NCBI GenBank assembly: GCA_031263125.1
Contig: JAISGL010000180.1
Span: forward strand, 1 to 36,401
Direction: 5' to 3'
DNA length: 36,401 nt
Source of the DNA: Opitutaceae bacterium
Lineage (GTDB): Bacteria; Verrucomicrobiota; Verrucomicrobiia; Opitutales; Opitutaceae
The translations under genes were made by a program, and so were the position numbers. Numbering within the stretch: position 1 is the first letter of the stretch; each line of letters opens with the position of its first letter. Below the pieces are notes generated by a model that had not been told where the DNA came from, searched no databases, and saw nothing but the letters and a program-made list of their open reading frames with translations. Positions 3,329-31,111 of this stretch are shown one piece after another.

Positions 3329-4276
3329 TCACCGCGCCCTCACGTCGATATTGCCGCCCGAGGCGCGCAACTTCACCAGCGGGCCGCCGCCGTTGACCTT
3401 GCCGGACAGGCGGTTTTTCCCGTGGCCGCCCGCGAGCGTGTCAATCCGCACATTGTCGCCGGCCCACACGCGGCCTCCGTTTGTCACCGCGTCGAGCAGC
3501 AGCGTGCTCGATTTGTCAAACTGCACACTCACCTCGCCGCCCGACGTAATCAGCACGCACTCGTTGGAAATCTGCGCGAGGTTTGCGTTGATCGTTCCGC
3601 CGCTCGTGCGCGCATTCACCGCGCCCCCGACGCCGTTGATCCTGATGTTGCCGCCGCTGGTCGTGATTTGCAAATCGCCCGCCGCGGGTCCCGCCTCCAC
3701 GTTGCCGCCGCTTGTTACGAGCGCGGCGTTTTGCGCGCAACCCGCAAGCGTGACATCGCCACCGCTCGTGCGCGCATCGACCGGGCCGCCGATGCGCCCG
3801 AGTTTCACATCGCCGCCGCTCGTGCGCGCATGCACCGCGCCCGCGATATCGCCCACGATCACATCGCCGCCGGAGGTCGTGAGCGTCGCGTCACAGGAGC
3901 GCGGCACGGTCACGTCGAACTCCACATAACCCGACGCGCGGCCCCAGGCGCTCCTGACATATTTCGCGGACGCGCTCACGGAATTGCCCGACTGTTCCAT
4001 CACCAGGTCGAGCGACTTCGCAATCGCATCGGCATCGGCGTCCGTGTTTGCCTTCGGGAAAATTTGCCGGGCGACGATTCGCACACTTTGAACATCGCCC
4101 GGTTCGACGCGCACCTTGCCGCCGGTTGTCCTGACGGAAAGTTTCGCGCCAGATTGCACCTGAAATGTCTTTTCGACCGTCCGCTCGATTTTTGCCGCCG
4201 CTGTCGCGGGGAAAAAAACGGCGGAGGAAGCCGCCGCGAAAACGAGCATTGTTTTTGAAAGCATGAAAAAGTTCAT
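3329..4276 (-). CDS. DUF4097-like beta-strand-repeat protein, secreted
   Basis: Signal peptide MLSKTMLVFAAASSAVFFPATAAAK; repeated ARTSGGDVxxG / TTSGGNIRING motifs. Confidence 0.8.
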   Translation of the reverse strand: MNFFMLSKTMLVFAAASSAVFFPATAAAKIERTVEKTFQVQSGAKLSVRTTGGKVRVEPGDVQSVRIVARQIFPKANTDADADAIAKSLDLVMEQSGNSVSASAKYVRSAWGRASGYVEFDVTVPRSCDATLTTSGGDVIVGDIAGAVHARTSGGDVKLGRIGGPVDARTSGGDVTLAGCAQNAALVTSGGNVEAGPAAGDLQITTSGGNIRINGVGGAVNARTSGGTINANLAQISNECVLITSGGEVSVQFDKSSTLLLDAVTNGGRVWAGDNVRIDTLAGGHGKNRLSGKVNGGGPLVKLRASGGNIDVRAR

Positions 4277-12378: not shown

Positions 12379-13281
12379 TCAATCCTCGGCCATGCCGCGC
12401 TTTCGGAACACGGAGGGCGTGCATTTTTCGAATCGCCGGAACCACGCGCAGAAATGCGATTCGTAGCGGAAACCGAGCGTGAACGCCGTGGACTTCACGC
12501 TGGCCGAGGTGTGGGCAAGCGCGTGTTTTGCGGCGTCCCGGCGGCGGTTTTCAAAATAACATCTCGGGGTGACACCGTATTCCTTGCAAAAAAGCTCCAC
12601 GAGGTGCCGCGTGGTCAGGCCCAGGCGCCGGGCAAAACCGTCAAGGTCGAAGGCTTCGGAGAGCGGGTGCCGGTCGAGCGCAATCACCAGTTGCGTCGCC
12701 CGCTCGTCCATGCCGACAAGCCGGAGCGGCGTGTGTCCGCGCGCCAGCATGCACTCGACATAGGCGCGCAGCCACGCCGGGAGGAGTTCCTGGGTTCGCA
12801 AAAAGACCTCGAAGGAGCATTTTTCAAACCGGAGATTGGCGTCCACTTTGTTTATATTGCGCCGCACAAATTGCAGCAATCGCATGGCGGGGGCTTCCAG
12901 GTAGGGAAACTGCGAGGCGGGGAAAACCTCGGTCTTTTTCCGCTCGAAAAGCGGCTCGTTTCCGGGCCATGCAAGATGGAAATAAATCGACAGGATTTCC
13001 GCGTCGGCGCTGAAAGACTGCCTTCGGGTCGGCGCCTCGACAAAAACCCACTGGCCGGGCCTGATCGTGATGCACTGCCTGCCGGTGGTCACCTCGACGC
13101 ATCCTTTGCGCACGAGCCAGCAGGTGATCCCCTTGTGCGTAAACTCCCCCTTGCGCGCATAGGGAAGCACCGGCCCTTCATAAATCCATATCAGGTGAAA
13201 TTGAAGGCTGGACCAGTCAATGAAGCGCATCGTGCCGGATGGCAGAGATGTCAGTTTTTGGATTTTGGGCGCATCACACAT
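12379..13281 (-). CDS. AraC-family transcriptional regulator
   Basis: N-terminal cupin-like sensing domain; C-terminal LDGFARRLGLTTRHLVELFCKEYGVTPRCYFENRRRDAAKHAL..STAFTLGFRYESHFCAWFRRFEKCTPSVFRKR. GGAGG Shine-Dalgarno upstream of ATG. Confidence 0.9.
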   Translation of the reverse strand: MCDAPKIQKLTSLPSGTMRFIDWSSLQFHLIWIYEGPVLPYARKGEFTHKGITCWLVRKGCVEVTTGRQCITIRPGQWVFVEAPTRRQSFSADAEILSIYFHLAWPGNEPLFERKKTEVFPASQFPYLEAPAMRLLQFVRRNINKVDANLRFEKCSFEVFLRTQELLPAWLRAYVECMLARGHTPLRLVGMDERATQLVIALDRHPLSEAFDLDGFARRLGLTTRHLVELFCKEYGVTPRCYFENRRRDAAKHALAHTSASVKSTAFTLGFRYESHFCAWFRRFEKCTPSVFRKRGMAED

Positions 13282-15851: not shown

Positions 15852-18800
15852 ATGAAAAGCATAATGATTTCCCCCGGATGGCAACGCTTCCATTTATCAT
15901 CCCGCCGCATGCGGATGCGTGACTGGCTGGCCGGGGCGGTGGCGGCGGTGGCGGCGATATTAATCGCTCCCGCCGCGTCAGCCCAGTTTGTACTAACCGG
16001 CACGCGCACACTCAACGCAGCCGACGGCGTCAGCTACACGGTGGCGGCGGACACAAACATCAGCGCGGCGGGCATGACGATCAGGGACGCCAGCACCGGG
16101 GAAACCGCTTCGTGGACGATTGCCAATTCGGGAACGATCAACGCGACCGGGAACGCGTCGATAGGAATAAACCTCTATACGACCGGCTCGTCGTATATAA
16201 TCAACGAGGCCACCGGCTATATCAAGGGCGTCGGCAATACGGTCAGTTACGCCGCGGTCAAGTTTGCCAGTTGGGGCGGCCTTGTGAACAGGGGATATAT
16301 TGAGGGCAACACCAACGGGGCGCTTTTTCTCACCGGGGGCAGCATCACCAACCACGGAACCATAAAGGCGAATCAAAATGCGATCAGGAACAATGGCGGG
16401 TGGCTTGTGCTTTCCAACCTCGGCGTGATTGAAGGCGGCAACAGTGGCATGTATCTTGTCTCCGGGGCCGCCATCGAAAACTCCGGCACGATTTATGGGA
16501 GCGGAGCCGACCGTTATGGCATATGGACCGCGGCGGCTGCCGGGGCGGCGGCGACCATACGCAACAATACCGACGGCCTCATCAAAGGTGGCTATACAGG
16601 CATCATGCTCGACTTTTCAGGCACCGTGGAAAACCACGGCGAAATCATCGGACTGGGAACAAGCGGAAGCGCGGCGGGCATCCATGTGAACACGAACGCC
16701 GCGTCGTCCGTCATTATTAACGAGGCAGACGCCTCCATCACCGGACGCGCGGGGATTCAGATCAGCGGCGGCTTGGTGGAAAACTCCGGGACCATTATTG
16801 GGCAAAGCGGGCAGGGTGTTTATTACAACGGCACGGTGGCGGGCGCGACCGTGAATAATATCGGCGGACATATCATCGCCAGCTCCCACGGGGTGCATTT
16901 GATCAGCGGCGGCGTCGCGGAATTGTACAATACCGGGGGCGCGCTTGTAAGGAGCGAGGGAAATGACCACGGCGTGCATTCAGGCGCGAGTTTGTTTTTA
17001 TTAAACGATGCCTCGATTATGGAAAGCACCGGCGGGCGCGGCGTAAACCTGACCGCCGGGTCAGGGACCGTGACAAATATCAACGGCGCGTCAATCACCG
17101 GGAGCACTTCCGGTCTCTATTCCAGTGTGTTTGTCAGTGTTACAAACGGAGCCGGTTCCCTTATCCAGGGGGATGGCGCGGCAACGGGGCAGGCAGGTGT
17201 TTATATAACGAATAACGGGCGGGTGGAAATAATCAATTCGGGCGCCATCATCGGCGGGATGAAGGCGATCCAGCTCGGGACCGGCGACGCGCATGTGATA
17301 ATAAACACCAGCGGCGGCATCATCAGCGCGACGCTGGAATACGGTCCGTCGGGCGGGGCGACGAGCGGGGATGTGAGCGGGGGCATCACGCAGACCGGTC
17401 ATGCAACCAATGTCCGGACGGCGATAATCGACAATGCGGGCCTCATCTCGGGCGGCAACCACGGCATTTATCTGGGCAACGGCGGCATCGTCACCAACAC
17501 GGGCACCATCCGGGCCACGGGCGCGCGGATTGCGGCGGTTTATTTTGCCGCGCTGAACTCCGCCACCAGCACGCTCACGCTCGGCGCCGGCTCCGTGCTC
17601 GACGGCGACGTGCTCAGCGCCAAGGCGGCGGGCAACAAGATCATTCTCGAAGGCGCGGGCGCGGAAGACGCCGGCTTCATTGGCGACGGCATCGACGCCG
17701 GCGCGGGTTTTGAGCAGCTTGCGATGAACGGCGCGGATTGGACATTGAGCGGCCCGGTCACGCTGACCGGTTCGGGCGCCGGCGCCATCGCGGTGAATTC
17801 CGGCACGCTCACGCTCGGCGGCGACCTCGCCATGCTGAACGGCGGCGGCGCGACGATTGCGGCGGGCAGCCGGCTTGCATTCGGATTTGGCGATGCCGTC
17901 TTCGGCGGCACGATCAGCGGCGAGGGCGATTTTGCCTATATCGGCAGCGGATCGCTGGGGCTGGGCGAGGGCAACACCTACACGGGCGACACGCTCATCA
18001 AAAGCGGCACGCTCACCGGCAGGATTGGCCCCGGCGCGCTCCGGCTCGATGAAACCACGGCGACTTACATCGTGAATCCGGCGGCGACGAGCGTGTCTTT
18101 TGCAAACGTTTCAGGCTCCGGCGTGCTGGACATCCGGAACGCCGATCTCGCCTTCGGCGTGGGCGCGGGCCAGACGCAGGTTTATAATTTCGCGGGCACA
18201 ATCGACACCGCCGGCGGCGGCAACAAACTCGTCAAAACCGGCGAAGGCACTCTCGTGCTCGAAAAATCCCTGGCGGCTCTCGGCGGCGGCGCGTTTGTCG
18301 AAAACGGTGTTCTCAGTCTGTCCGATGTTTCGCATGTCAACAGCGGCACGCTCGTGCTCGGCGGCGCCGCCGGAATGGGACTGCTCGAATACACGGGCGC
18401 GGGCAGCTGGACGACGGATGTCACGCTCGCGGGCATGGGCGGCGGTTTCCACGTTTCCTCCGGCGTGGGAACCGGCACGCAGACACTCGGCGCGATTACC
18501 GTGGACGGCTCGGGCCTGTTTGCGAAAGGCGGCGATGGCGCGCTGGACATCACGAACGTCACACTCGACGTGGGCGTGGTCGGCCTGCAAGTGCGCGACG
18601 GAACATTGATCGCGGGCACGGACGCCTTCAAGGGCGACATCGAACTGACCGCCGCGACAAGCACGCTGGTCGCGAATCACAACGGCCCGGACCATGATTA
18701 CGCCGGCGCCATTTCCGGATTGGGCAATCTCGTCAAGCAAGGCGGCGGTTTGCTGGAACTGACCGGGAACAACACCTACGCGGGCGACACGACAATCCTG

Positions 18801-21800
18801 GAAGGCACGCTGCAAGGCAAAGTCGGCGCGGGAACGTTGCGCGTCGAATCCTCCGGCACCTACAAGGTCGCCGACGGCGTGACCGACTTCGTGGTCGCCG
18901 GCATCGAGGGCGATGGAACCGTGAACCTCAACCAATCAAGCCTCACGCTCGACGCGGCGGCGGGCGTGACGGGATCGTTCGGTTTCAGCGGCCAGCTCAC
19001 GAGCGACAACGCCGCTTCCAAACTTATCAAAACGGGCAGGGGCACGACAAAACTGCTGAGCCGCGTCGCCCTCGACGGCGGCGCCGAGATTCAGGAAGGC
19101 GTCCTCTGGCTCGACGATCAGGACAACATTGGAAACAACATCCTCCTCGGCACGGAAAGTTCGACCGGCTTGATCGAGTATGCGAATTCTGGCGCGGCGT
19201 GGACAAAAAATATCACGCTCAACGGCTCGGGCGGATTCAACGTGGACAGCGCGTCGGGCACGCAAACCCTCGCGATCACGATTGGCGGCACGGGCGCGTT
19301 TGTGAAGGGCGGCGCGGGTGCGCTCGACATCAGGAATGTCACGCTCGGCGCGGACGTGCAAAACGCCGCCGTGCTCGACGGCATGCTGATCGGCGGCGCG
19401 GATTCGCTCAGGGGCGACATCGCGCTCGCGGAAGCCGGCAGCACGCTCGTCTTTCATCATGACGCGGCGGCGGGGCACGCGTTTTCCGGCGTCATCTCGG
19501 GCAACGGCAGCCTGGTCAAGGACGGCGGCGGCTTGCTCAACCTGACCGGCGGCAACACCTACGCGGGAGACACCGTGATCCGCGGCGGCACGCTTCAGGG
19601 AAACATCGGCGCGGGCACGCTCACGGTCGAGGCGCCCGCGACGTACATGGTCGCGGACGGCGTTTCCTCGTTCACCGTCACGGGCATCGGGGGCGCGGGC
19701 ACCGTGCATCTCAACGCGGCCAATCTCATGCTCCACGCGGACGCCGGGGTGACGGGGACGTTCAGCTTTGGCGGCCAGCTCGCCGGCTCCGGTTCCTCCG
19801 CGTTGATAAAAACCGGCGCGGGCACGGTGGAGCTGCGAAGCGTGGCGCGGTTGCAAGGCGGCGCGCTCATCGAAGAGGGCACGCTGTGGCTGGAAGATCA
19901 GGATTTCATCCAGGCTCCGATTGTCCTGGGCACGGCCACCACGGGCGGCCTGATCGAATACACCGGCACGGCGGCTTGGGCGCATGACATCACGCTCGCG
20001 GCTGGCGGCGGCGGCGGATTTTCAATCAACGGCGGCACGCTCGCGCTGACCGGTGCGTTTGCAATCAACGGAGCGGGCAATTTCGTGAAAGGCGGCAACG
20101 GCACGCTCGACATCATCGCGGCAAACATCACCGGCACCGCCGATGGCAAAACCGTCGTGCTCGACGGCACGTTGCGCGGCGACAGCACGCAATTCAAAGC
20201 CGGCGGCATCGCGCTGGCCGGCGCGGACAGCGTGATCGAGTTCCATCAGACGGCTGATGGCGTTTACTCCGGCCTCATCGAAGGCGCGGGCACGTTGCTC
20301 AAAACCGGTGACGCCCTGCTCGACCTCGGCGCGGCGGCGCACACGTATGCGGACACCGTCATCCGCGCCGGCGTGCTCACCGGCAACACCGGCATGGGCA
20401 CGCTGACCGTGGAGGCGTCCGGCACCTACCGCGTCGCCGCGGACAGGACGGAGTTCCCGGTCGCGGGCGTCCTCGGCAACGGCGTCATCGACATGGCAAA
20501 CGCGAATCTGGTGCTCAACGTCGCCAGCGGCACGGCGGAGTTTTCGTTCGCGGGCAGCCTCACCGGCGGAAAACAATTCATCAAGACTGGCGCGGGCACG
20601 CTTGAGCTTCTCAGCGGTGTCGCGCTCAACGAAGGCGCGGCCATCCGGGAGGGCGTGCTCAAACTGGCCGACCAGTCCTTCCTCAAGGCGCCCGTCGTCA
20701 TCGGCGATGCGACCACGTCCGCCATGATCGAATACACCGGCACGGACGCGTGGGAACACGCTCTCGCGCTGCAAGGCATGGGCGGCGGTTTTGTCGTCGC
20801 GAGTGGCGGGATTGTCATCACCGCCGCGATCAGTTCTTCCGACAACGCCGTGTTCGCCAAGGGTGGCGCGGGCACGCTCGACATCACCGGCGCCACGACC
20901 GGCGGCCTCGGCGGCGCGAAAATCCTCGCGGGTGTTTTGCGCGGTGACGCCGCCTCGATGCCCGGCGCGGGCGTGGACATCTCGGCGGGGGCCGCCGCTG
21001 AGTTTTATCAGATTGCCGACGCGGTTTATGCCGGCGCGGTCAGCGGCGCGGGCGCGCTGGTGAAAACCGGCGCGGGCGCGCTCACGCTGGGCGGCTCACT
21101 CACGCACACCGGGGCGACTGTCATCAATCAAGGCGTGCTCGGACTGGCGGCGGCCAACGCGTTGCCGGCGGCCTCGCAACTCTCAATCGGCGCGGACGGC
21201 GCGTTCGACACAAACGGCTTCAACCACAACATCGCGACGCTGGCCAACGACGGCGTGATCTATCTCGACGCCAGCGTGAATTCCGGCAACGGCCTGATCA
21301 AAACCGCCGGCAAACTGACCGTGACCAGCTCGGCGTCGGGCACGGGACAGGTGTTGGTGCGCATCAGCGAAAGCGAGACAATCACCGGCGGCACGACCGC
21401 GACGGTCATGGAAATCACCGGCGCCGACACCTCCGATTACACCGCGCGCCTGGCCGCACGCGCCGTGACGGGGTCATATGACTGGACAGTCATGAAAGAC
21501 GGCGGGCAAATCGTGCTCGCCACCGGGGACCTTTCGCCTGAAGTGGCCGCGGCGGGCGGACTCGACGCGGCGGGCCACCTCACCGGCAAGGCATCGCTTG
21601 CCGCAATCAGCCAGCGCCTGCTTGCCGGGCGCACGGCCAGCCAGAAAAACGAATTCCAAATGTGGGCCGGCGGCATGCGCCGCGAAAACACGATGACCTC
21701 GGATTTGTATGACGGGGCGGAGGTGCGCACAAACGTCACCCAGGCCGGCGCGGATTGGAATTTCGGAAAAATGTCCAGGCGTCCGCTCACGCTCGGTGTG

Positions 21801-22457
21801 TATTATGATCATGCCGCCTCCGACATGGAAATGCGGGCCGGCGCATCCCGGTCGCGCACGACCTCCCACGGCGTCGGCGTGTATGGCTCCTATCGCACGA
21901 AGCCGCTTTACGTGGACGTGATCCTCCGCGGATCGCGCGAGGATTTCGAGGTGGACGTGCCCTTCGCGGCGCGCTTCACGACCAAGGGCGCCAGCATGGC
22001 CGCCTCGGTCGAGATCGGCGGCGTGCTCCCCGGCGGCTCCGCGTGGAACGTGGAACCGCAGGCGCAGATCACTTATCAACGCCACCAAATCGACGACGCC
22101 ACCGACGGCTTCGGACGCGGAATCTCGGTGGACGGCGACGCTTCCGTCGAGGCCCGCGCGGGCGTGCGTGTGTGGCGCGAGTTTGCCGCCGCCAAACGCG
22201 AAATTGCCTTCACGCCCTGGCTGCGCGCCAGCCTGGCCCACGAGACCAACGGCAGGGGCGCCGTCACGATGCTGGGGCGGGGCAGGGGACCGGATGCGGT
22301 TTTCGACAACAAGTTCGACGGCTCCGTCGGAATGATCGACGGCGGTTTCGGCCTGGACTGGAAGGGCGGCTTCCGTCTTCAGGTCGAGGGCGCGTGGTAT
22401 CACGGCGACAGGCTGAAAGGTTTCGGGGGCAGCTTCGGCGCGGCCTATGCGTGGTAG
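15852..22457 (+). CDS. Giant autotransporter (type V secretion), beta-helix passenger with autotransporter-associated (PATR-like) repeats and C-terminal beta-barrel
   Basis: Signal peptide ...DWLAGAVAAVAAILIAPAASAQ; many ENSGTI/VENHGEI repeats; GGNTYAGDTVIRGGTLQG and FVKGGAGALDI motifs; C-terminal barrel ending FGGSFGAAYAW. Confidence 0.92.
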   Translation: MKSIMISPGWQRFHLSSRRMRMRDWLAGAVAAVAAILIAPAASAQFVLTGTRTLNAADGVSYTVAADTNISAAGMTIRDASTGETASWTIANSGTINATGNASIGINLYTTGSSYIINEATGYIKGVGNTVSYAAVKFASWGGLVNRGYIEGNTNGALFLTGGSITNHGTIKANQNAIRNNGGWLVLSNLGVIEGGNSGMYLVSGAAIENSGTIYGSGADRYGIWTAAAAGAAATIRNNTDGLIKGGYTGIMLDFSGTVENHGEIIGLGTSGSAAGIHVNTNAASSVIINEADASITGRAGIQISGGLVENSGTIIGQSGQGVYYNGTVAGATVNNIGGHIIASSHGVHLISGGVAELYNTGGALVRSEGNDHGVHSGASLFLLNDASIMESTGGRGVNLTAGSGTVTNINGASITGSTSGLYSSVFVSVTNGAGSLIQGDGAATGQAGVYITNNGRVEIINSGAIIGGMKAIQLGTGDAHVIINTSGGIISATLEYGPSGGATSGDVSGGITQTGHATNVRTAIIDNAGLISGGNHGIYLGNGGIVTNTGTIRATGARIAAVYFAALNSATSTLTLGAGSVLDGDVLSAKAAGNKIILEGAGAEDAGFIGDGIDAGAGFEQLAMNGADWTLSGPVTLTGSGAGAIAVNSGTLTLGGDLAMLNGGGATIAAGSRLAFGFGDAVFGGTISGEGDFAYIGSGSLGLGEGNTYTGDTLIKSGTLTGRIGPGALRLDETTATYIVNPAATSVSFANVSGSGVLDIRNADLAFGVGAGQTQVYNFAGTIDTAGGGNKLVKTGEGTLVLEKSLAALGGGAFVENGVLSLSDVSHVNSGTLVLGGAAGMGLLEYTGAGSWTTDVTLAGMGGGFHVSSGVGTGTQTLGAITVDGSGLFAKGGDGALDITNVTLDVGVVGLQVRDGTLIAGTDAFKGDIELTAATSTLVANHNGPDHDYAGAISGLGNLVKQGGGLLELTGNNTYAGDTTILEGTLQGKVGAGTLRVESSGTYKVADGVTDFVVAGIEGDGTVNLNQSSLTLDAAAGVTGSFGFSGQLTSDNAASKLIKTGRGTTKLLSRVALDGGAEIQEGVLWLDDQDNIGNNILLGTESSTGLIEYANSGAAWTKNITLNGSGGFNVDSASGTQTLAITIGGTGAFVKGGAGALDIRNVTLGADVQNAAVLDGMLIGGADSLRGDIALAEAGSTLVFHHDAAAGHAFSGVISGNGSLVKDGGGLLNLTGGNTYAGDTVIRGGTLQGNIGAGTLTVEAPATYMVADGVSSFTVTGIGGAGTVHLNAANLMLHADAGVTGTFSFGGQLAGSGSSALIKTGAGTVELRSVARLQGGALIEEGTLWLEDQDFIQAPIVLGTATTGGLIEYTGTAAWAHDITLAAGGGGGFSINGGTLALTGAFAINGAGNFVKGGNGTLDIIAANITGTADGKTVVLDGTLRGDSTQFKAGGIALAGADSVIEFHQTADGVYSGLIEGAGTLLKTGDALLDLGAAAHTYADTVIRAGVLTGNTGMGTLTVEASGTYRVAADRTEFPVAGVLGNGVIDMANANLVLNVASGTAEFSFAGSLTGGKQFIKTGAGTLELLSGVALNEGAAIREGVLKLADQSFLKAPVVIGDATTSAMIEYTGTDAWEHALALQGMGGGFVVASGGIVITAAISSSDNAVFAKGGAGTLDITGATTGGLGGAKILAGVLRGDAASMPGAGVDISAGAAAEFYQIADAVYAGAVSGAGALVKTGAGALTLGGSLTHTGATVINQGVLGLAAANALPAASQLSIGADGAFDTNGFNHNIATLANDGVIYLDASVNSGNGLIKTAGKLTVTSSASGTGQVLVRISESETITGGTTATVMEITGADTSDYTARLAARAVTGSYDWTVMKDGGQIVLATGDLSPEVAAAGGLDAAGHLTGKASLAAISQRLLAGRTASQKNEFQMWAGGMRRENTMTSDLYDGAEVRTNVTQAGADWNFGKMSRRPLTLGVYYDHAASDMEMRAGASRSRTTSHGVGVYGSYRTKPLYVDVILRGSREDFEVDVPFAARFTTKGASMAASVEIGGVLPGGSAWNVEPQAQITYQRHQIDDATDGFGRGISVDGDASVEARAGVRVWREFAAAKREIAFTPWLRASLAHETNGRGAVTMLGRGRGPDAVFDNKFDGSVGMIDGGFGLDWKGGFRLQVEGAWYHGDRLKGFGGSFGAAYAW

Positions 22458-22528: not shown

Positions 22529-25500
22529 ATGAATAATATAATCTCCAATCGTGCCCTGCACCGCCTTCCGCGCGTCCGCCGCCTGCTGCCGGCGGCGGCG
22601 CTCCCCGTCGTGTGCGCCTTGTCCGCGGGACTGTTCGCGCAAAGCCCCGTGCAGGTGACGGGCACCCGCACCGGCGGCCTCGCGATCACCACGGCATACG
22701 GCCTGTCCTATGAAATCGCCGGGGACGCCGTGGTCACCTGGAGCAGCGTCACCAACGCCGACTACGCCGTGTATGATCTCTATTCCGACACCTGCTCGTG
22801 GATGATCGTGAACCGCGGCACCGTGGGCGCGCCCGCGAATGGCGCGTCGCCTTACAATGGCATTTATCTGAAAACCACGGGGTCCTCCACGATTATAAAC
22901 GAGACCACCGGTTATATAACCACCGGGCTGGTCACGGGCGATTCCCGTGCGGCGGTGAATTTTGAGCGGGGATGGGGTTATTTTATAAACAAAGGCTCCG
23001 CCATCGGCGCCTCCACCGGAGCCATCCTGGGCGTGGGCGGGGTCGTGGAAAACACGGGGACAATCATCGGGCAGAATGCCAGCAGGAGCGGGATATGGTT
23101 TGTCATGGGAAGTGGCGCCGTCCGCAACACGGGCGGATATATCGAGGGCGGCGCTTATGGCATCCGGATGTCAGCCGGCGCCGGCGCGGAAATCTGGAAT
23201 ACCGGTGGCGGCGTGATCAACGCGGTGGCCCCGTCGGGAGCCGGCATCATCGCGGGAAATGCCAGCCTGTCCGTGACAAATGACGCGTCCGGCATCGTGG
23301 CGTCCCAGCGCGGCATTTATTATAATTCAAGCGCAGGCCCCGGTGTCGTGAATAATATTAACGGCGCGGTGATAACAGGCTCCGACAGCGGTGTATATTC
23401 CTACGGCGCCCTCAGCCTCTCCAATGACGCCACATCGCTGATCGAGGCATTCAGCGCGGCAACCGGCAACGCGGGCATCTACATGACGAATTCGGGCCTG
23501 CTCACGCTTACCAACGCGGGCGTCATTTCCGGCGGCGTGAAAGGCATCAGCCTCGGCACGCTCACCGGCCACTCCATCGTGAACGAAGCCGGCGGCGTTA
23601 TAAAAAGCATTTATGATTATGGCGCGCCGGGCACGCTCACCAGCGGCCAGATGGGCGCCGCCATCAGCCAGTCCGCCGCTTCGGGCGTGGCCGGCGTGAC
23701 GATTTCCAACGCGGGGCTGATCGAGGGCCTGCGGCATGGCATTTTTATAGGCAACGAGGCGGTCATTATTAACACCGGCACCATTCGCGCCACGGGCGCA
23801 ACCATCGTGGCCGCGATTTATCTTTCGGCGACCAACGGCGCGGACAGCCTCATCACGCTCGACACCGGCTCGGTGCTCGAAGGCGGCGCGGTCAGCGCCT
23901 CCGTGAACTCGAACCGCCTCGTGCTCCGTGGCTCCGGCGCGGAGGCCGGCAATTTCATCGGGAGAACGGACACCTCCGGCTTCAAATCGCTGACGATGGA
24001 AGGCGACGACTGGACGCTCTCCGGAACGATTTCGCTCACGGGAACGGACGCCGCCCTGCGCGTCGCCACCGGCACGCTTTCAATTGCCGGCGATGTATTC
24101 TTTCGCAAAGCCGGCGGCGCCGCCGTGGTGGATGCGGACGCAACGCTCAGGATTGCCGACGGCGCCAACCTCGCCTCGGCGACGGCAGACAAACATGCCG
24201 CCATCGCAACCGCCGGCTCCGTGCTCTTCGACCTCGCCGGCGACTTTGACTACAACGGAAACATAAGCGGCTCCGGTTCGGTGATAAAAAACGGCGCGGG
24301 CACGGTGACACTTTCAGGCTCCAACACCCACGGCGACACCACGATCAACGCCGGCACGCTCCAAGGCGGCATCGGCGCCGGCATTCTCACAGTCAACGCG
24401 GGCGGCGCTTACGACGCGGGCGCGCTGACGGCAGTGACAGTCGGCGGGCTGGCAGGCGAAGGCGTCGTGATGCTCGGTTCCGCGGACCTAGTGTTCAACA
24501 TCGCGGGCGCCGGCGCTGTGTTTGATTTCGCGGGCACAATCACCGGCGGCGGCCAGTTTATCAAAACCGGTTCCGGCGCGCTCGACTTGCGGCAAACGCT
24601 CACCTTCGCCAGCACGCACATCAAGGAAGGTTCGGTGAAACCCGGCGACGCTGCAAAATTCGGCGCGGGCACGCTTCTGCTCGGCGGCGTCACCACGCAC
24701 GGTCTGATTGATTACGACGGAGCTGCGGACTGGACAAAGGACATCGGGCTTACCGGCGCGGGCGGCGGTTTTATCATTGGCATTGACGGCAGCGCAAACT
24801 TCATCGCGACAGCGACGGGCGCGGGCGATTTTATAAAGGCGGGAAGCGGCACGCTCGACATCACGGGTGCCACGATGAACAACACCGGCAACACCGTGGT
24901 CGAAGCCGGCACATTGCGCGGCGACACAACCACGATAAAAGGCGATACCAGCGTGGCGGCGGGCGCGACCGTTGAGTTTTATCAAACCAGCGACGGCGCC
25001 TACGCCGGCGCTATCACCGGCGCGGGTGCGTTGTATAAAACCGGCGCAGGCTCACTCACCCTGACGGGAGCCAACACCTACGGCGACACCGTCATCAGCG
25101 CGGGCTTGATCGAGGGCAACATCGGCGCGGGCACGCTCACGGCGGAAAGTTCCGGCACGTATAAAATGGGCGCGGGTTCAAGTGTCACCTTCACCGGCAT
25201 GCTCGGCAACGGCACGGTTGATATGAACGGCAACGATCTGGTGTTCGACGTGGCCGATGGCATCACGGGCACGTTCGGCTTCCAAGGCGCGCTGGGCAAC
25301 GGCAGCGATTTTATAAAAACCGGCGCGGGCACGCTCGACTTGCGGCAAACACTCGCCCTCGCGAGCACGCACATCAAGGAAGGCTCGGTGAGGCTCGACG
25401 ATGCCGCAAAACTCGGTGCGGGCACGCTTCTGCTCGGCGACACCGCCACGCACGGCCTGATTGACTACACCGGAGTCGCGGACTGGACAAAGAATACAGG

Positions 25501-28500
25501 ACTCACCGGCGCGGGCGGCGGTTTTATCATTGGCGTTGGCGACAGCGCAAACTTCACCGCGACAGCGGCGGGTGCGGGCGATTTTATAAAGTCGGGAGGC
25601 GGCACGCTCGACATCACGGGAGCCACGATGAACAATACCGGCAACACCGTGGTCGAAGCCGGCACGTTGCGCGGCGACGCAACCACGATCAAGGGCGATA
25701 CCAGCGTGGCGGCGGACGCGACCGTTGAGTTTTATCAAACCAGCGACGGCGCCTACGCCGGGGCGATCACCGGCACGGGTGCGTTGCACAAAACCGGCGC
25801 AGGCTCACTCACCCTGACGGGAGCCAACACCTACGGCGACACCGTCATCAGCGCGGGCTTGATCGAGGGCAATATCGGCGCGGGCACGCTCACGGCGGAG
25901 AGTTCCGGCACGTATAAAATGGGCGCGGGTTCAAACGTCACATTCACCGGTATGCTTGGCAACGGCACGATTGATATAAACGGCAACGATCTGGTGTTCG
26001 ACGTGGCCGATGGCATCACGGGCACGTTCGGCTTCCAAGGCGCGCTCAACAACGGCAACGATTTTATAAAAACCGGCGCGGGCACGCTCGACTTGCAGCA
26101 AACACTCGCCCTCGCGAGTACGCACATCAAAGAAGGCTCGGTGAAACTCGACGATGCCGCAAAACTCGGCGCGGGCGCGCTCCTGCTCGGCGACACTTCC
26201 GCGTGCGGCCTGATTGACTACACCGGAACGGCGGACTGGACAAAGGACATCGGGCTGACCGGCGCGGGCGGCGGTTTTATCATTGGCGTCGGCGGCAGCG
26301 CAAACTTCACCGCGACAGCGGCGGGCGCGGGCGATTTTATAAAGTCGGGAAGCGGCACGCTCGACATAACGGGAGCCACGATGAACAACACCGGCAACAC
26401 GCTGGTCGAAGCCGGCACGCTGCGCGGCGACGCAACCACAATAAAAGGCGACACCGGCGTGGCGGCGGACGCGATCGTCGAGTTTTATCAAACCACCGAC
26501 GGCGCCTACGCCGGGGCGATCACCGGCGCGGGCACGTTGCGCAAAAGCGGCTCAGGCGCGCTCACTCTCACCGGGGCCAACGCCCACGGTGACACCGTCA
26601 TCGAGCAGGGTTTGCTCACCGGCAACATCAGCGCGGGCCGGCTCGATATAAAGACCGGCGGCACCTACAAGGTGCGCGACGGCCAGCAGGCTTACACCAC
26701 AACGGGCATCGTCGGCGACGGCATGCTCGACCTGAACCAGGCCGATCTCGTGTTCGACATCGCGGGTGGCTCCAGCGTGTTCAACTTCAGCGGCAGCTAC
26801 ACCGGCGCGGGCGGCAATCAGCTCATCAAGACCGGCGCGGGCACGCTCGACTTGCAAACGCGCGCGGCGCTTCCCGGCGGTGCCGTGATCGGGGAAGGCG
26901 TCGTGCGACTGGCAAGCGAGGATTTTCTCGGCGCCGGCGTCACGCTCGGCGGCACGACCACCACCGGTTTGCTCGAATACACCGGCTCCACCGCATGGGC
27001 CGGGGCGCTCAAGGTCGCGGGCGCGGGCGGCGGCTTCACCGTGGCCGGCGGCGACGGCGCGCAATTCACCGGCACGCTTTCGGGTGACGCACTTTTTATC
27101 AAGGAAGGCGCGGGACGCCTCGATGCAACCGGCGCGACCTTTGCCAACACCGGCGGCATGTCGGTGCGCTCCGGCACGCTCGCGGGCGCCGCGCACAACA
27201 TCGCCGCGGCCACCGAGGTGCTTGCGGGCGCGGTGCTGGAGTTTGCCGAGGCGGGCGACGGCGTCTACGCGGGCGCGCTCACCGGCGCGGGTTCCCTGCT
27301 CAAGACGGGCGCGGGCACGCTCACGCTGTCACAAGCGGTTGGATACGGCGGCGCGACCACCGTGCGCGAAGGCATTCTCAGGGCGGGTGCGGCCAGTCTC
27401 TGGCTTAATACATCGAAGGTCGTCACCGAGGCCGCCGGCGCGATCGACATGGGCGGTTTTGACCAGAGGATCGTCAACCTCGCCAACGACGGCGCGATTA
27501 TATTCAACGCAAAGGTCAACGGCGTCGCGGGTGTTATATATGAAATGGATAGCCTGCAAATTACCGGCAGCGCGACTGGCCTGGGAAAAATCCGCGTTAA
27601 TATATACGAAACTTCCATCGACGGCGCGGCATGGACGCGGGAAGCCGTGTTTTTCGAGATCAGCGGAAGCGATGCGCCGCATTATATAGCGGAGACAGCC
27701 GGGCGTCATGTCAGCGGCGCCTACGACTGGGTTGTCACGCCTTCCGATGATCGCAAAAAATACACGCTCTCCGCCGACCAGCTTTCGCCGGAGGTGCCCG
27801 CGGTCGGCGGAATCGACGCCGCGGGTTATCTCGCGGGCAAAGCCTCGGCGTCCGGTCTCAGCCGGAGGCTGCTGGCGATGCGCGCGGAAAACGGCCCGCA
27901 CGATTTTCAATTCTGGAGCGGCGGACTCTGGCGCGAAGACCGTCTGAACGACGCGCTTTATAATCACGCGCAGGCGAGGACACGCGGCATCCAGATCGGC
28001 GCGGATTGGAACAATAAAAAGGGAAGCGACAGGCCCGCCACCATCGGCGTGTTTTATGATTATGCGGAAACACACATGGATATGGACGGCAAAACCTCCT
28101 CCACCAAGTCCGGTTCCAACGGCGCCGGTTTCTACGCCTCGTACCGCCCGGCCCCGCTTTATATAGACCTGCTCATCCGCGGCTCGCGGGAGAATTACGA
28201 CATCATCGTGCCCGGCATGCCCGCGTTCAGCACCGAAGGCACGGGCATCGCCGTTTCCATCGAGACCGGCGGGGTGCTTCCGGTTGACTGGAGCTGGAAT
28301 ATTGAACCGCAACTGCAGGCCATGCTGCAAAAACACAAAGTGGACGCCGTGTCTGACGCGTTCGACCGCGAATATACAATTGATGGCGCTGGCACGATCG
28401 AGGGCCGCTTCGGCGTGCGGCTCTGGCGAGAGTTTCCGATGTGGAACGGCAGAGGCCGGCTCGCCCCATACATCCGCCCCAGCCTCATTTATGAATGGGA

Positions 28501-28690
28501 AGGCGAGGGCGTGGTGAGCGTCGGCGGCAGGAGTTTCAAAAACCACATGGGAGGTTCTTACGGCGCGCTTGATGCCGGCGTGTCGCTCATGCTCGGCGGA
28601 CACCTCCTCGTCAGCGTGGATGGAGGCTGGTATGCCGGAAGCAAGATGAACGGATACGCTGTCAACGCCGGCCTCAGCCTTCTCTGGTAA
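22529..28690 (+). CDS. Giant autotransporter, paralogue of the preceding gene
   Basis: Start at MNNIISNRALHRLPRVRRLLPAAALPVVCALSAGLFAQ (signal peptide). The listed ORF start at 22043 lies inside the upstream gene. PATR-like repeats; barrel ending VNAGLSLLW. Confidence 0.92.
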   Translation: MNNIISNRALHRLPRVRRLLPAAALPVVCALSAGLFAQSPVQVTGTRTGGLAITTAYGLSYEIAGDAVVTWSSVTNADYAVYDLYSDTCSWMIVNRGTVGAPANGASPYNGIYLKTTGSSTIINETTGYITTGLVTGDSRAAVNFERGWGYFINKGSAIGASTGAILGVGGVVENTGTIIGQNASRSGIWFVMGSGAVRNTGGYIEGGAYGIRMSAGAGAEIWNTGGGVINAVAPSGAGIIAGNASLSVTNDASGIVASQRGIYYNSSAGPGVVNNINGAVITGSDSGVYSYGALSLSNDATSLIEAFSAATGNAGIYMTNSGLLTLTNAGVISGGVKGISLGTLTGHSIVNEAGGVIKSIYDYGAPGTLTSGQMGAAISQSAASGVAGVTISNAGLIEGLRHGIFIGNEAVIINTGTIRATGATIVAAIYLSATNGADSLITLDTGSVLEGGAVSASVNSNRLVLRGSGAEAGNFIGRTDTSGFKSLTMEGDDWTLSGTISLTGTDAALRVATGTLSIAGDVFFRKAGGAAVVDADATLRIADGANLASATADKHAAIATAGSVLFDLAGDFDYNGNISGSGSVIKNGAGTVTLSGSNTHGDTTINAGTLQGGIGAGILTVNAGGAYDAGALTAVTVGGLAGEGVVMLGSADLVFNIAGAGAVFDFAGTITGGGQFIKTGSGALDLRQTLTFASTHIKEGSVKPGDAAKFGAGTLLLGGVTTHGLIDYDGAADWTKDIGLTGAGGGFIIGIDGSANFIATATGAGDFIKAGSGTLDITGATMNNTGNTVVEAGTLRGDTTTIKGDTSVAAGATVEFYQTSDGAYAGAITGAGALYKTGAGSLTLTGANTYGDTVISAGLIEGNIGAGTLTAESSGTYKMGAGSSVTFTGMLGNGTVDMNGNDLVFDVADGITGTFGFQGALGNGSDFIKTGAGTLDLRQTLALASTHIKEGSVRLDDAAKLGAGTLLLGDTATHGLIDYTGVADWTKNTGLTGAGGGFIIGVGDSANFTATAAGAGDFIKSGGGTLDITGATMNNTGNTVVEAGTLRGDATTIKGDTSVAADATVEFYQTSDGAYAGAITGTGALHKTGAGSLTLTGANTYGDTVISAGLIEGNIGAGTLTAESSGTYKMGAGSNVTFTGMLGNGTIDINGNDLVFDVADGITGTFGFQGALNNGNDFIKTGAGTLDLQQTLALASTHIKEGSVKLDDAAKLGAGALLLGDTSACGLIDYTGTADWTKDIGLTGAGGGFIIGVGGSANFTATAAGAGDFIKSGSGTLDITGATMNNTGNTLVEAGTLRGDATTIKGDTGVAADAIVEFYQTTDGAYAGAITGAGTLRKSGSGALTLTGANAHGDTVIEQGLLTGNISAGRLDIKTGGTYKVRDGQQAYTTTGIVGDGMLDLNQADLVFDIAGGSSVFNFSGSYTGAGGNQLIKTGAGTLDLQTRAALPGGAVIGEGVVRLASEDFLGAGVTLGGTTTTGLLEYTGSTAWAGALKVAGAGGGFTVAGGDGAQFTGTLSGDALFIKEGAGRLDATGATFANTGGMSVRSGTLAGAAHNIAAATEVLAGAVLEFAEAGDGVYAGALTGAGSLLKTGAGTLTLSQAVGYGGATTVREGILRAGAASLWLNTSKVVTEAAGAIDMGGFDQRIVNLANDGAIIFNAKVNGVAGVIYEMDSLQITGSATGLGKIRVNIYETSIDGAAWTREAVFFEISGSDAPHYIAETAGRHVSGAYDWVVTPSDDRKKYTLSADQLSPEVPAVGGIDAAGYLAGKASASGLSRRLLAMRAENGPHDFQFWSGGLWREDRLNDALYNHAQARTRGIQIGADWNNKKGSDRPATIGVFYDYAETHMDMDGKTSSTKSGSNGAGFYASYRPAPLYIDLLIRGSRENYDIIVPGMPAFSTEGTGIAVSIETGGVLPVDWSWNIEPQLQAMLQKHKVDAVSDAFDREYTIDGAGTIEGRFGVRLWREFPMWNGRGRLAPYIRPSLIYEWEGEGVVSVGGRSFKNHMGGSYGALDAGVSLMLGGHLLVSVDGGWYAGSKMNGYAVNAGLSLLW
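24554..26600 (+). repeat. 753-bp (251-aa) near-identical in-frame tandem repeat, about 2.7 copies, inside autotransporter 2
   Basis: Anchor CACGATGAAC at 24871, 25624 and 26377 (753-bp spacing); (D/Q)FIKTG anchors at 24554, 25307 and 26060, also 753 bp apart. Confidence 0.95.
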
Positions 28691-28735: not shown

Positions 28736-31111
28736 ATGAAAACAAATCCCCGCAATGTGCCCGCCCTTCCGTGCCTGACGCGCGCCGCGGCGCTGTTTCT
28801 CCTCTGCATGCCTGCCGCGCTGGCCGCGCAAACAGCCGCGCCAGCCGTGCCACCCGACGAGGAAATTGTCGTGATGGAGCAGTTCAACATCGTCGAGTCG
28901 GCCAATGACAATGACTGGGTGTCAACGCAGGCGATGAGTGGCACGCGCACCTCCGAACTCATCGCCAACCTTCCTTATCAAATGCAGGTGGTGACCGCCG
29001 AGTTCATGGAGGATTTCGACATGGTCTCGGTCATCGACCAGCTCTCATCCATCAGCGGCCTCGCCCTCGACGGGGATTCCGCCGATCCGGTCGCCGGCGC
29101 CACGCCGAGCGAAAATGCGACTTTCCGTGGATTCAAAATATCAAAACTGCGCGATGGCTTCAGGAACGCCCCGCCGCCCCAGCTCGGCAACACCCGGCAG
29201 GTCGAGGTGATCAAAGGCCCCATGTCCACGCTTTACGGCATGGCGCAGCCGGGCGGCGTGATCAATTATATCTCCCGGAGGCCGAGGGCGCGTCCGCAAT
29301 ACACGGCCGGTTTTTCGGCGGGCAATTATGACCGCGTGCGCGGCAGCGTCTCCATCAACACGCCCATTTATAAAAAGAAACTCTATCTTTTGGGCGTTGC
29401 ATCGTATTCGTCGGGGAAGGGCAATATTGAATATTCACAAAATGAAACCCTCACCTATTTCGCCCGCCTTCTATACAAACCCACCCGCACGACTGACATA
29501 ACGGTTTCATATGAACTACAGAAAGCCGAGGGCCGCCGGGGTGACACGGTGCCGCGATGGACGACGGGGAACACCGTGACCGGACAAAATTGGAGCACGA
29601 CCACCGGCACGCTCATGGGGCCTTATTGGGACCTTGCGACGTTTAACGCGACCGGCGGCCCCAATGAATGGTATAATCGCTCTTACGCGGGGATAAATTT
29701 TCTTTTGGAGCAGAGGCTCGGAAAAAATTGGAAGTTTCGTGTCGCTTATCAATGGCAGGAAAAGAAATGGGATCAAAATCTCTACACCGATTCCAACTAT
29801 TGCGTGGATATTCCGGATGGCGGAATGAGGGCCATTTACCCGCGTGTATGGTATCAGGATTACGATTATCCCTACGCGGTGCAGGCGGATTTGCTGGGCC
29901 ATTTCAAGACGGGAAAGATTGGTCACGCCCTGCATTTTCTATTCGATACCGCCAAGATTGACCTGGACCGCTCCTATTGGGAATTGCCAAGCGCGCAAAA
30001 CAGGCCGGTTTCCGGCGGCGGCGTCATCCCCGATTCCGTGTATTACATGGACCCGCTCAACCCGGATTGGAGCACGGACTGGTTCAGCTTCGGAGACATA
30101 AGAAGCCAGGACCGGCAGGGGGGACTTTCCCGCCTGGACAGCCAGCGTTATGAGTATGAAAGAATGACCGGCTATTGCGTCACCGAGCGCATGTATATGT
30201 TCGGCAACAAACTGATTTTCATGGGCAGTCTGCGCTACGACGAGGTTTATAATAAAGTCTACAGCGGCACCCGCCTCATGAGTGACGCGGACTGGCAGGG
30301 ATGGAGGCGCGCGCTCAAGGATGACGACATCACATATAGCGCCGGCTGCAACTGGAATCCGTATGGCGACAACCGTTTGATTGTGTTTGGAAACTACAGC
30401 ACGTCCTATAACACCGAGATCGTCGTGGATGGCGGAACGGGCGAGGTGATGCCGAACGAGACCGGACGGGGATTCGAGGGCGGAATCAGGGTGGGCGCGT
30501 TTCACGGCAAAATGAACATGGCTGTCACGGGATTTCAGATCGAGAAGCACAATATAGCGCAGACGAATCACGAATATTACGTGGCGGGGGATGGAACGCC
30601 TGAATATACAAGCACGGGCACGCATCGTGTCCGGGGCGCGGACATGGACCTGGACATCAGGCCGTTCCAGGGGTTCGTGGTGAGCCTGGCGGCTTCGTAT
30701 ATTGACGCGAAGGTCATCGAATCCAGCGATCCCCGTTATCCGGTGGGTTCGCGCAAAATAAAAACCCCCGACAAAACCCTGCACATCGCGGCGAAATACC
30801 GTTTTCCGGGCATGTTCAGGGGATTCACCATCGGCGCGCGCATGGGTTACCGGTCGGGTTACGTGAACGCGAATTATATAGCAAGGAATTCACTGGTGCC
30901 GGGATCGAACAACGCCGAGCAGCCTTATTATGAAGCGCCGTCGCTGACTGTTTTCGGAGGATTTCTCAAATATGAATGGAGGCGGAAAAAAACCAGCCAG
31001 TCCCTCACGCTCAGCGGAAAAAACATTATGGACAAACTGTATGTGGGGGCAAACCGGAAGGTGAGCCTCGGGCGGCAGGTCACGCTTGCATACGGCATTT
31101 CGTTCAGATAA
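28736..31111 (+). CDS. TonB-dependent outer-membrane receptor
   Basis: Signal peptide ending AALAAQ; EEIVVMEQFNIV TonB-box-like region; plug motifs VEVIKGPMSTLYGMAQPGGVINYISRRP; beta-barrel to LAYGISFR. Confidence 0.93.
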   Translation: MKTNPRNVPALPCLTRAAALFLLCMPAALAAQTAAPAVPPDEEIVVMEQFNIVESANDNDWVSTQAMSGTRTSELIANLPYQMQVVTAEFMEDFDMVSVIDQLSSISGLALDGDSADPVAGATPSENATFRGFKISKLRDGFRNAPPPQLGNTRQVEVIKGPMSTLYGMAQPGGVINYISRRPRARPQYTAGFSAGNYDRVRGSVSINTPIYKKKLYLLGVASYSSGKGNIEYSQNETLTYFARLLYKPTRTTDITVSYELQKAEGRRGDTVPRWTTGNTVTGQNWSTTTGTLMGPYWDLATFNATGGPNEWYNRSYAGINFLLEQRLGKNWKFRVAYQWQEKKWDQNLYTDSNYCVDIPDGGMRAIYPRVWYQDYDYPYAVQADLLGHFKTGKIGHALHFLFDTAKIDLDRSYWELPSAQNRPVSGGGVIPDSVYYMDPLNPDWSTDWFSFGDIRSQDRQGGLSRLDSQRYEYERMTGYCVTERMYMFGNKLIFMGSLRYDEVYNKVYSGTRLMSDADWQGWRRALKDDDITYSAGCNWNPYGDNRLIVFGNYSTSYNTEIVVDGGTGEVMPNETGRGFEGGIRVGAFHGKMNMAVTGFQIEKHNIAQTNHEYYVAGDGTPEYTSTGTHRVRGADMDLDIRPFQGFVVSLAASYIDAKVIESSDPRYPVGSRKIKTPDKTLHIAAKYRFPGMFRGFTIGARMGYRSGYVNANYIARNSLVPGSNNAEQPYYEAPSLTVFGGFLKYEWRRKKTSQSLTLSGKNIMDKLYVGANRKVSLGRQVTLAYGISFR

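Follow-up and report, generated by a model that had tools for sequence, protein, structure and literature searches.

The 36,401-nucleotide stretch of DNA studied here, referred to as the window, encodes an autotransporter, AT2, whose passenger contains three long tandem units of high sequence identity. When a surface protein carries repeats of this kind, the usual interpretation is that its length switches, and the question raised by the locus is whether the AT2 units are recent duplicates, vary in number, or are old copies that have been kept alike. The comparisons described below indicate that AT2 probably holds an old three-unit array, with the same layout in four lineages, whose units are kept alike by intragenic exchange, mainly gene conversion. 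A literature search found no report on the repeats of these Opitutaceae autotransporters.

The window and its relatives

The window spans contig C154, from end to end, in an Ereboglobus-like Opitutaceae MAG (G000; 3.9 Mb, 489 contigs, 66% complete). The rpoB gene was not found in this 489-contig, 66% complete MAG; the carB gene of the window had its closest match in genome G002, and the closest named relative of the same genus was Ereboglobus sp. Reactor_metabat.82 (family Opitutaceae).

Three further full-length AT2 genes were identified by searching 252 genomes of the family and scanning genome contigs. These were L034 of Ereboglobus sp. Reactor_metabat.82 (labelled R82), L035 of Nm470_bin120 (G245:C448; labelled Nm) and a locus on a 7.8-Mb contig of G243, so that the AT2 comparison covered four lineages including the window (Win); MAGs account for at least two of its three relatives. 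The encoded proteins were 2053 aa in the window, 2046 aa in L034, 2052 aa in L035 and about 2052 aa in G243.

Nm470_bin120 has two AT2-like genes, the window-like L035 (86–89% aa identity) and a G243-like fragment, L052 (G245:C371; 80%). As this MAG is placed with G243 and its second fragment is 80% identical to the G243 gene, L035 may have been misbinned or acquired by transfer, which would affect its label and leave the comparison of units unaffected.

AT2 and its passenger

The features of the locus on which the analyses rest are as follows.

15852–22457, plus strand: AT1, the adjacent autotransporter, 2201 aa, four diverged units, TIGR01414 barrel; used as internal control
18228, 19023, 19803 and 20577, plus strand: starts of the AT1 units
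22529–28690, plus strand: AT2, type Va autotransporter, 2053 aa, with PF12951 stretches and a PF03797 barrel
24557–25309, plus strand: AT2 unit 1, 251 aa
25310–26062, plus strand: AT2 unit 2, 251 aa, 91% nucleotide identity and dS 0.19 to unit 1
26063–26644, plus strand: homogenised core of AT2 unit 3, about 190 codons
26645–26821, plus strand: unhomogenised tail of AT2 unit 3, dS 0.81 to unit 2 and 0.04 to the Nm orthologue
26822–27345, plus strand: AT2 unit 4, an old, diverged and unhomogenised module, dS about 1 to units 1–3
27923–28621, plus strand: C-terminal beta-barrel of AT2 (Autotransporter domain match, PF03797, residues 368–600 of 26822–28687)
28736–31111, plus strand: TonB-dependent receptor, adjoining AT2 here and in the relatives

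AT2 comprises, in order, a signal-like sequence, an N-terminal passenger, the repeat array, unit 4 and the beta-barrel. Mechanical ORF calling placed the start at GTG 22043, which appeared to be too early; the ATG at 22529, with a sequence that is signal-like by eye (MNNIISNRALHRLPRVRRLLPAAALPVVCALSAGLFAQ), is the likely start. The barrel was identified in the C-terminal piece (PF03797, 98.8 bits), the domain being unlisted for the full-length protein. PATR motifs scored above the curated cut-offs (PF12951, 114.9 bits, eight stretches; TIGR02601, 100.3 bits, five stretches), and by eye there were about three PATR-like motifs in each unit. Based on this domain content, we assign AT2 to the type Va (classical) autotransporters with a PATR passenger.

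A PATR passenger is expected to form a right-handed beta-helix. The AlphaFold model of units 1 and 2 was all-strand and of low confidence (mean pLDDT 62); a fold search with this low-confidence model returned several autotransporter passengers among its top matches, none with E below 0.2, and a PDB sequence search with AT2 gave a single weak match, to IcsA, in the C-terminal part. We infer that the array would form a beta-helical stalk or spacer of conserved length between the N-terminal part and the barrel.

Layout and identity of the array

Direct repeats in AT2 begin at 24547, 25300 and 26053 (start-to-start spacing 753 and 753), and the array extends from 24547 to about 26644. The original prediction of an in-frame 251-aa module at 753-bp spacing was confirmed (unit starts 24557, 25310 and 26063), and its estimate of some 2.7 copies was close to the roughly 2.8 copies of the 753-bp unit that we measured. 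Its description of the copies as near-identical was too strong, as nucleotide identity was 91% between units 1 and 2, about 90% between units 2 and 3 (core) and 85–86% between units 1 and 3 (core). The maximal lag-753 segment (24547–25849) had 90.5% identity and the lag-1506 segment 85.4%, compared with about 25–40% at the same lags outside the array. Tandem Repeats Finder missed the array because the longest period it considered was 500.

The longest exact run shared among units was 83 bp in the window, 70 bp in Nm and 47 bp in R82, and exact runs of such length suffice for RecA-type recombination. The self-match of the array far exceeded all other genome matches of the region, and no silent donor cassettes were found among those other matches.

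Synonymous divergence of the units

Synonymous divergence (dS) was estimated by NG86. Within the AT2 array of the window it was 0.19 for units 1 and 2, 0.24 for units 2 and 3 (core) and 0.30 for units 1 and 3 (core), compared with 0.98–1.10 between units 1–3 and unit 4, and 0.71–1.14 among AT1 units and AT1–AT2 pairs. The original prediction would have been undermined by copies no more alike at silent sites than other passenger repeats, and this was not the outcome (0.2–0.3 in the array versus 0.7–1.1 for other passenger units).

Core paralogue dS was 0.21–0.30 in the window, 0.16–0.31 in Nm and 0.32–0.43 in R82, all lower than the values between Win and R82 orthologues at equal unit position (0.55–0.73). 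The Win–Nm orthologue values were sometimes no higher than the paralogue values (e.g., 0.20 for the unit 2 core). Core dS was not low in G243 (units 1 and 2, 0.54; units 2 and 3, 0.63), in which unit 2 is less homogenised. In the region comprising the unit 3 tail and unit 4 (window 26618–27345) silent dS was 0.04–0.11 to Nm and about 0.28 to R82; this region has the highest GC3 (0.86), with silent divergence to relatives that is low compared with 0.2–0.7 in the array.

Grouping of units by species and by position

Under concerted evolution, the copies in one genome resemble each other more closely than they resemble their positional orthologues in other species, and gene conversion leaves mosaic tracts. 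By the first of these signs, AT2 paralogues were clearly closer than orthologues in the comparison of Win with R82, and partially so for Win with Nm. A maximum-likelihood tree of the 16 AT2 unit cores from the four lineages recovered one clade of R82 units (support 100/99, bootstrap first) and one of G243 units (93/99), and position clades were rejected for unit 1 (p-AU 8.5e-5), unit 2 (9.5e-58) and unit 3 (5.7e-54). Units 1–3 of Win and Nm were not strictly monophyletic by species, which, together with the occasionally low Win–Nm orthologue dS, indicates that exchange has been partial or that DNA has also been exchanged between lineages.

Elsewhere in the two passengers the grouping was positional. 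Unit 4 of all lineages formed one clade (100/100), as did the tail of unit 3, past the homology limit (100/100), which the tails of units 1 and 2 did not, and the four AT1 units, from the same locus and genomes, were grouped by position with support of 99–100. Based on these groupings, exchange appears to be confined to the high-identity AT2 array.

Mosaic tracts

At the start of unit 3 of the window, agreement was with unit 2 of the window, and not with unit 3 of Nm, at 23 successive informative sites (permutation p 0.0002). The first ~100 nt of this unit resemble unit 2 and differ from unit 3 as found in the other lineages, and Nm and R82 retain a different sequence there (ELxxAxxLAxAFI); the head of window unit 3 was therefore most likely, judging from this pattern, overwritten from unit 2 or 1. 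Other mosaic tracts, of up to about 600 bp, were observed in R82, Nm and G243. In addition, a two-codon deletion was present in all three R82 units, in unit 3 only of Nm and in none of the three window units, the distribution expected if it had spread between units. Along the window array, the odd unit among the differences shifted from unit 1 on the 5' side to unit 3 on the 3' side, an edge effect expected when the outer ends exchange less.

AT1 and the surrounding locus

AT1 (TIGR01414 barrel, 94 bits) has four units in the window, L034 and L035, and its G243 counterpart (L067) is without one 260-aa module (unit 2; window 19014–19794). The head of the single G243 unit at this place is unit-1-like and its tail is ambiguous, which fits either loss in G243 or gain elsewhere.

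AT2 is followed by the TonB-dependent receptor, an MFS transporter, a FAD-dependent oxidoreductase and a calcineurin-like phosphoesterase. The gene order AT1–AT2–TonB receptor is kept in the relatives, which suggests, from gene order, a joint cell-surface role for the three proteins, perhaps in attachment to or use of gut substrates. The TonB receptor (28736–31111) was 87% identical (aa) to that of R82 and 83% to that of Nm, the reverse of the AT2 relationship; with the receptor closer to R82 and AT2 closer to Nm, the history of the autotransporter–TonB locus seems to be reticulate.

On either side of the autotransporter–TonB–MFS cluster lies a FAD-dependent oxidoreductase (PF12831; 13317–15812 and 32405–33784), one of the two carrying an F5/8 type C domain, and an AraC-type regulator is encoded at 12379–13281. 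With these flanking genes the region looks like a substrate-use locus. A DUF4097 toastrack protein is encoded at 3332–4276 on the minus strand.

Age of the array and mode of exchange

Three similar units and one diverged unit made up the AT2 passenger array in all four lineages, and no difference in AT2 copy number was seen in any of them (0/4, species-level comparison). As this 3+1 layout is common to the four lineages, the duplication must be old, and the recent duplication that the original prediction offered as one of two readings is not supported. Between genera (window versus G243) the array was the best conserved part of AT2, with 74% aa identity; the stretch running from unit 4 to the C-terminus had 67% and the N-terminal region 47%. 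To judge from these sequences, the AT2 array is old and stable, with no visible length switching across the four lineages. The predicted RecA-dependent changes of length in steps of 251 aa were not seen in AT2 (0/4 lineages, species level), the one related change being the 260-aa difference in AT1 between genera.

The gene conversion or other intragenic exchange that had also been proposed is supported by the species-wise clustering of units, the mosaic tracts and the AT1 control. By these comparisons the AT2 units have evidently exchanged sequence within the gene at constant unit number in the lineages compared. We infer that non-reciprocal homologous recombination (gene conversion) was the main mode, because sequences changed while unit number did not. 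The passenger would carry an array of three supermodules of ~251 aa, with about three PATR beta-strand repeats in each; the diverged module and then the barrel come after the array. Unit copies would overwrite one another by gene conversion, their number staying at three, and exchange would reach as far as homology does, from the beginning of unit 1 to roughly codon 190 of unit 3. Dependence on RecA is presumed.

The main rival to gene conversion remains unequal crossover with selection for three units, in which crossover or replication slippage would repeatedly delete and duplicate units and thereby homogenise them, selection on passenger length would keep three as the usual number, and AT2 would be a Periscope-like protein of variable length. 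The units, about 90% identical, share exact runs as long as 83 bp that offer a substrate for such recombination, a whole 260-aa AT1 module does differ between G243 and the others, and PATR repeat number in ShdA varies from 4 to 6 (PMC9704523). We nevertheless consider this turnover unlikely, as AT2 unit number was equal in 4/4 lineages, one of them on a 7.8-Mb contig, and positional marks persist at both ends of the array (S6 of unit 1, the unit 3 head in Nm and R82, and the unit 3 tail). Repeated loss and regain to three AT2 copies is possible.

Recent duplication from fewer units, having taken place separately in the window lineage and in the other lineages, would account for units clustering largely by species. 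It is improbable given that the layout is common to four lineages, that unit 3 heads (Nm and R82) and tails (all lineages) are orthologous across lineages, and that the limits of the array are similar in the window and R82. More doubtful still is an assembly artefact, a chimeric or collapsed repeat. G000 is a fragmented MAG (489 contigs, 66% complete), a contig of G245 ends within unit 3 of another AT2-like gene, and any extra copies that were fully identical could be collapsed in short-read MAGs, but the longest exact repeat was just 83 bp and the same layout recurred on the 7.8-Mb contig and in two other MAGs. Strong protein or codon constraint acting alone on an old array, to which the conservation of the array between genera (74% versus 47% for the N-terminus) might point, is scarcely credible, as synonymous sites are alike within species and differ between species at equal position, dS is about 0.7–1.1 for AT1 units and for unit 4, which are modules of this same kind with similar codon usage, and position clades for units 1–3 were rejected.

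Comparison with known repeat proteins

Periscope Proteins (SasG, Rib, Sgo_0707 and CdrA) are proteins with variable numbers of high-identity repeats, for which intragenic recombination has been proposed (PMC8201768), and the PATR repeats of ShdA of Salmonella enterica, in 4–6 copies, are an example of variable repeat number in surface proteins (PMC9704523, PMC8201768). AT2 resembles Periscope Proteins in being a cell-surface protein with tandem repeats of >50 residues (251 aa) and high DNA identity (85–91% nt), and the mechanism proposed for them is also intragenic recombination. It differs in its predicted fold, which is of the PATR type and not one of separately folded globular domains, and in the length variation that defines those proteins, which was unseen in AT2 (four lineages, species level). 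Based on the absence of length variation in the available comparisons, we do not file AT2 as a Periscope Protein.

AT2 and ShdA are both autotransporters with high-identity PATR tandem repeats, in a passenger that is beta-helical in ShdA and predicted to be so in AT2. However, the weak match of AT2 to the NCBIfam ShdA model (residues 761–1133, 39.7 bits) was far under the cut-off of 2249, each AT2 unit is a supermodule of 251 aa, and unit number was constant (3 in 4/4 lineages) compared with the 4–6 reported for ShdA. A further parallel is concerted evolution by gene conversion, with paralogous AT2 units nearer to one another than to orthologous positions and with mosaic tracts, the difference being that it occurs among tandem units within one gene. 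On this sequence evidence we describe AT2 as an autotransporter of the PATR kind whose repeat array is homogenised from within the gene.

We speculate, tentatively, that these Opitutaceae may have a pair of autotransporters working as one system, in which AT2 would supply a stalk of fixed length that homogenises itself: gene conversion would keep its three modules alike at a constant number, and selection would preserve the homogeneity of the repeats and not variation in length. High identity and constant number occur together in AT2 across lineages, and the neighbouring, non-homogenising AT1 provides a built-in control. AT2 thus offers a specific example of repeat identity that, taken by itself, is no predictor of changes in copy number.
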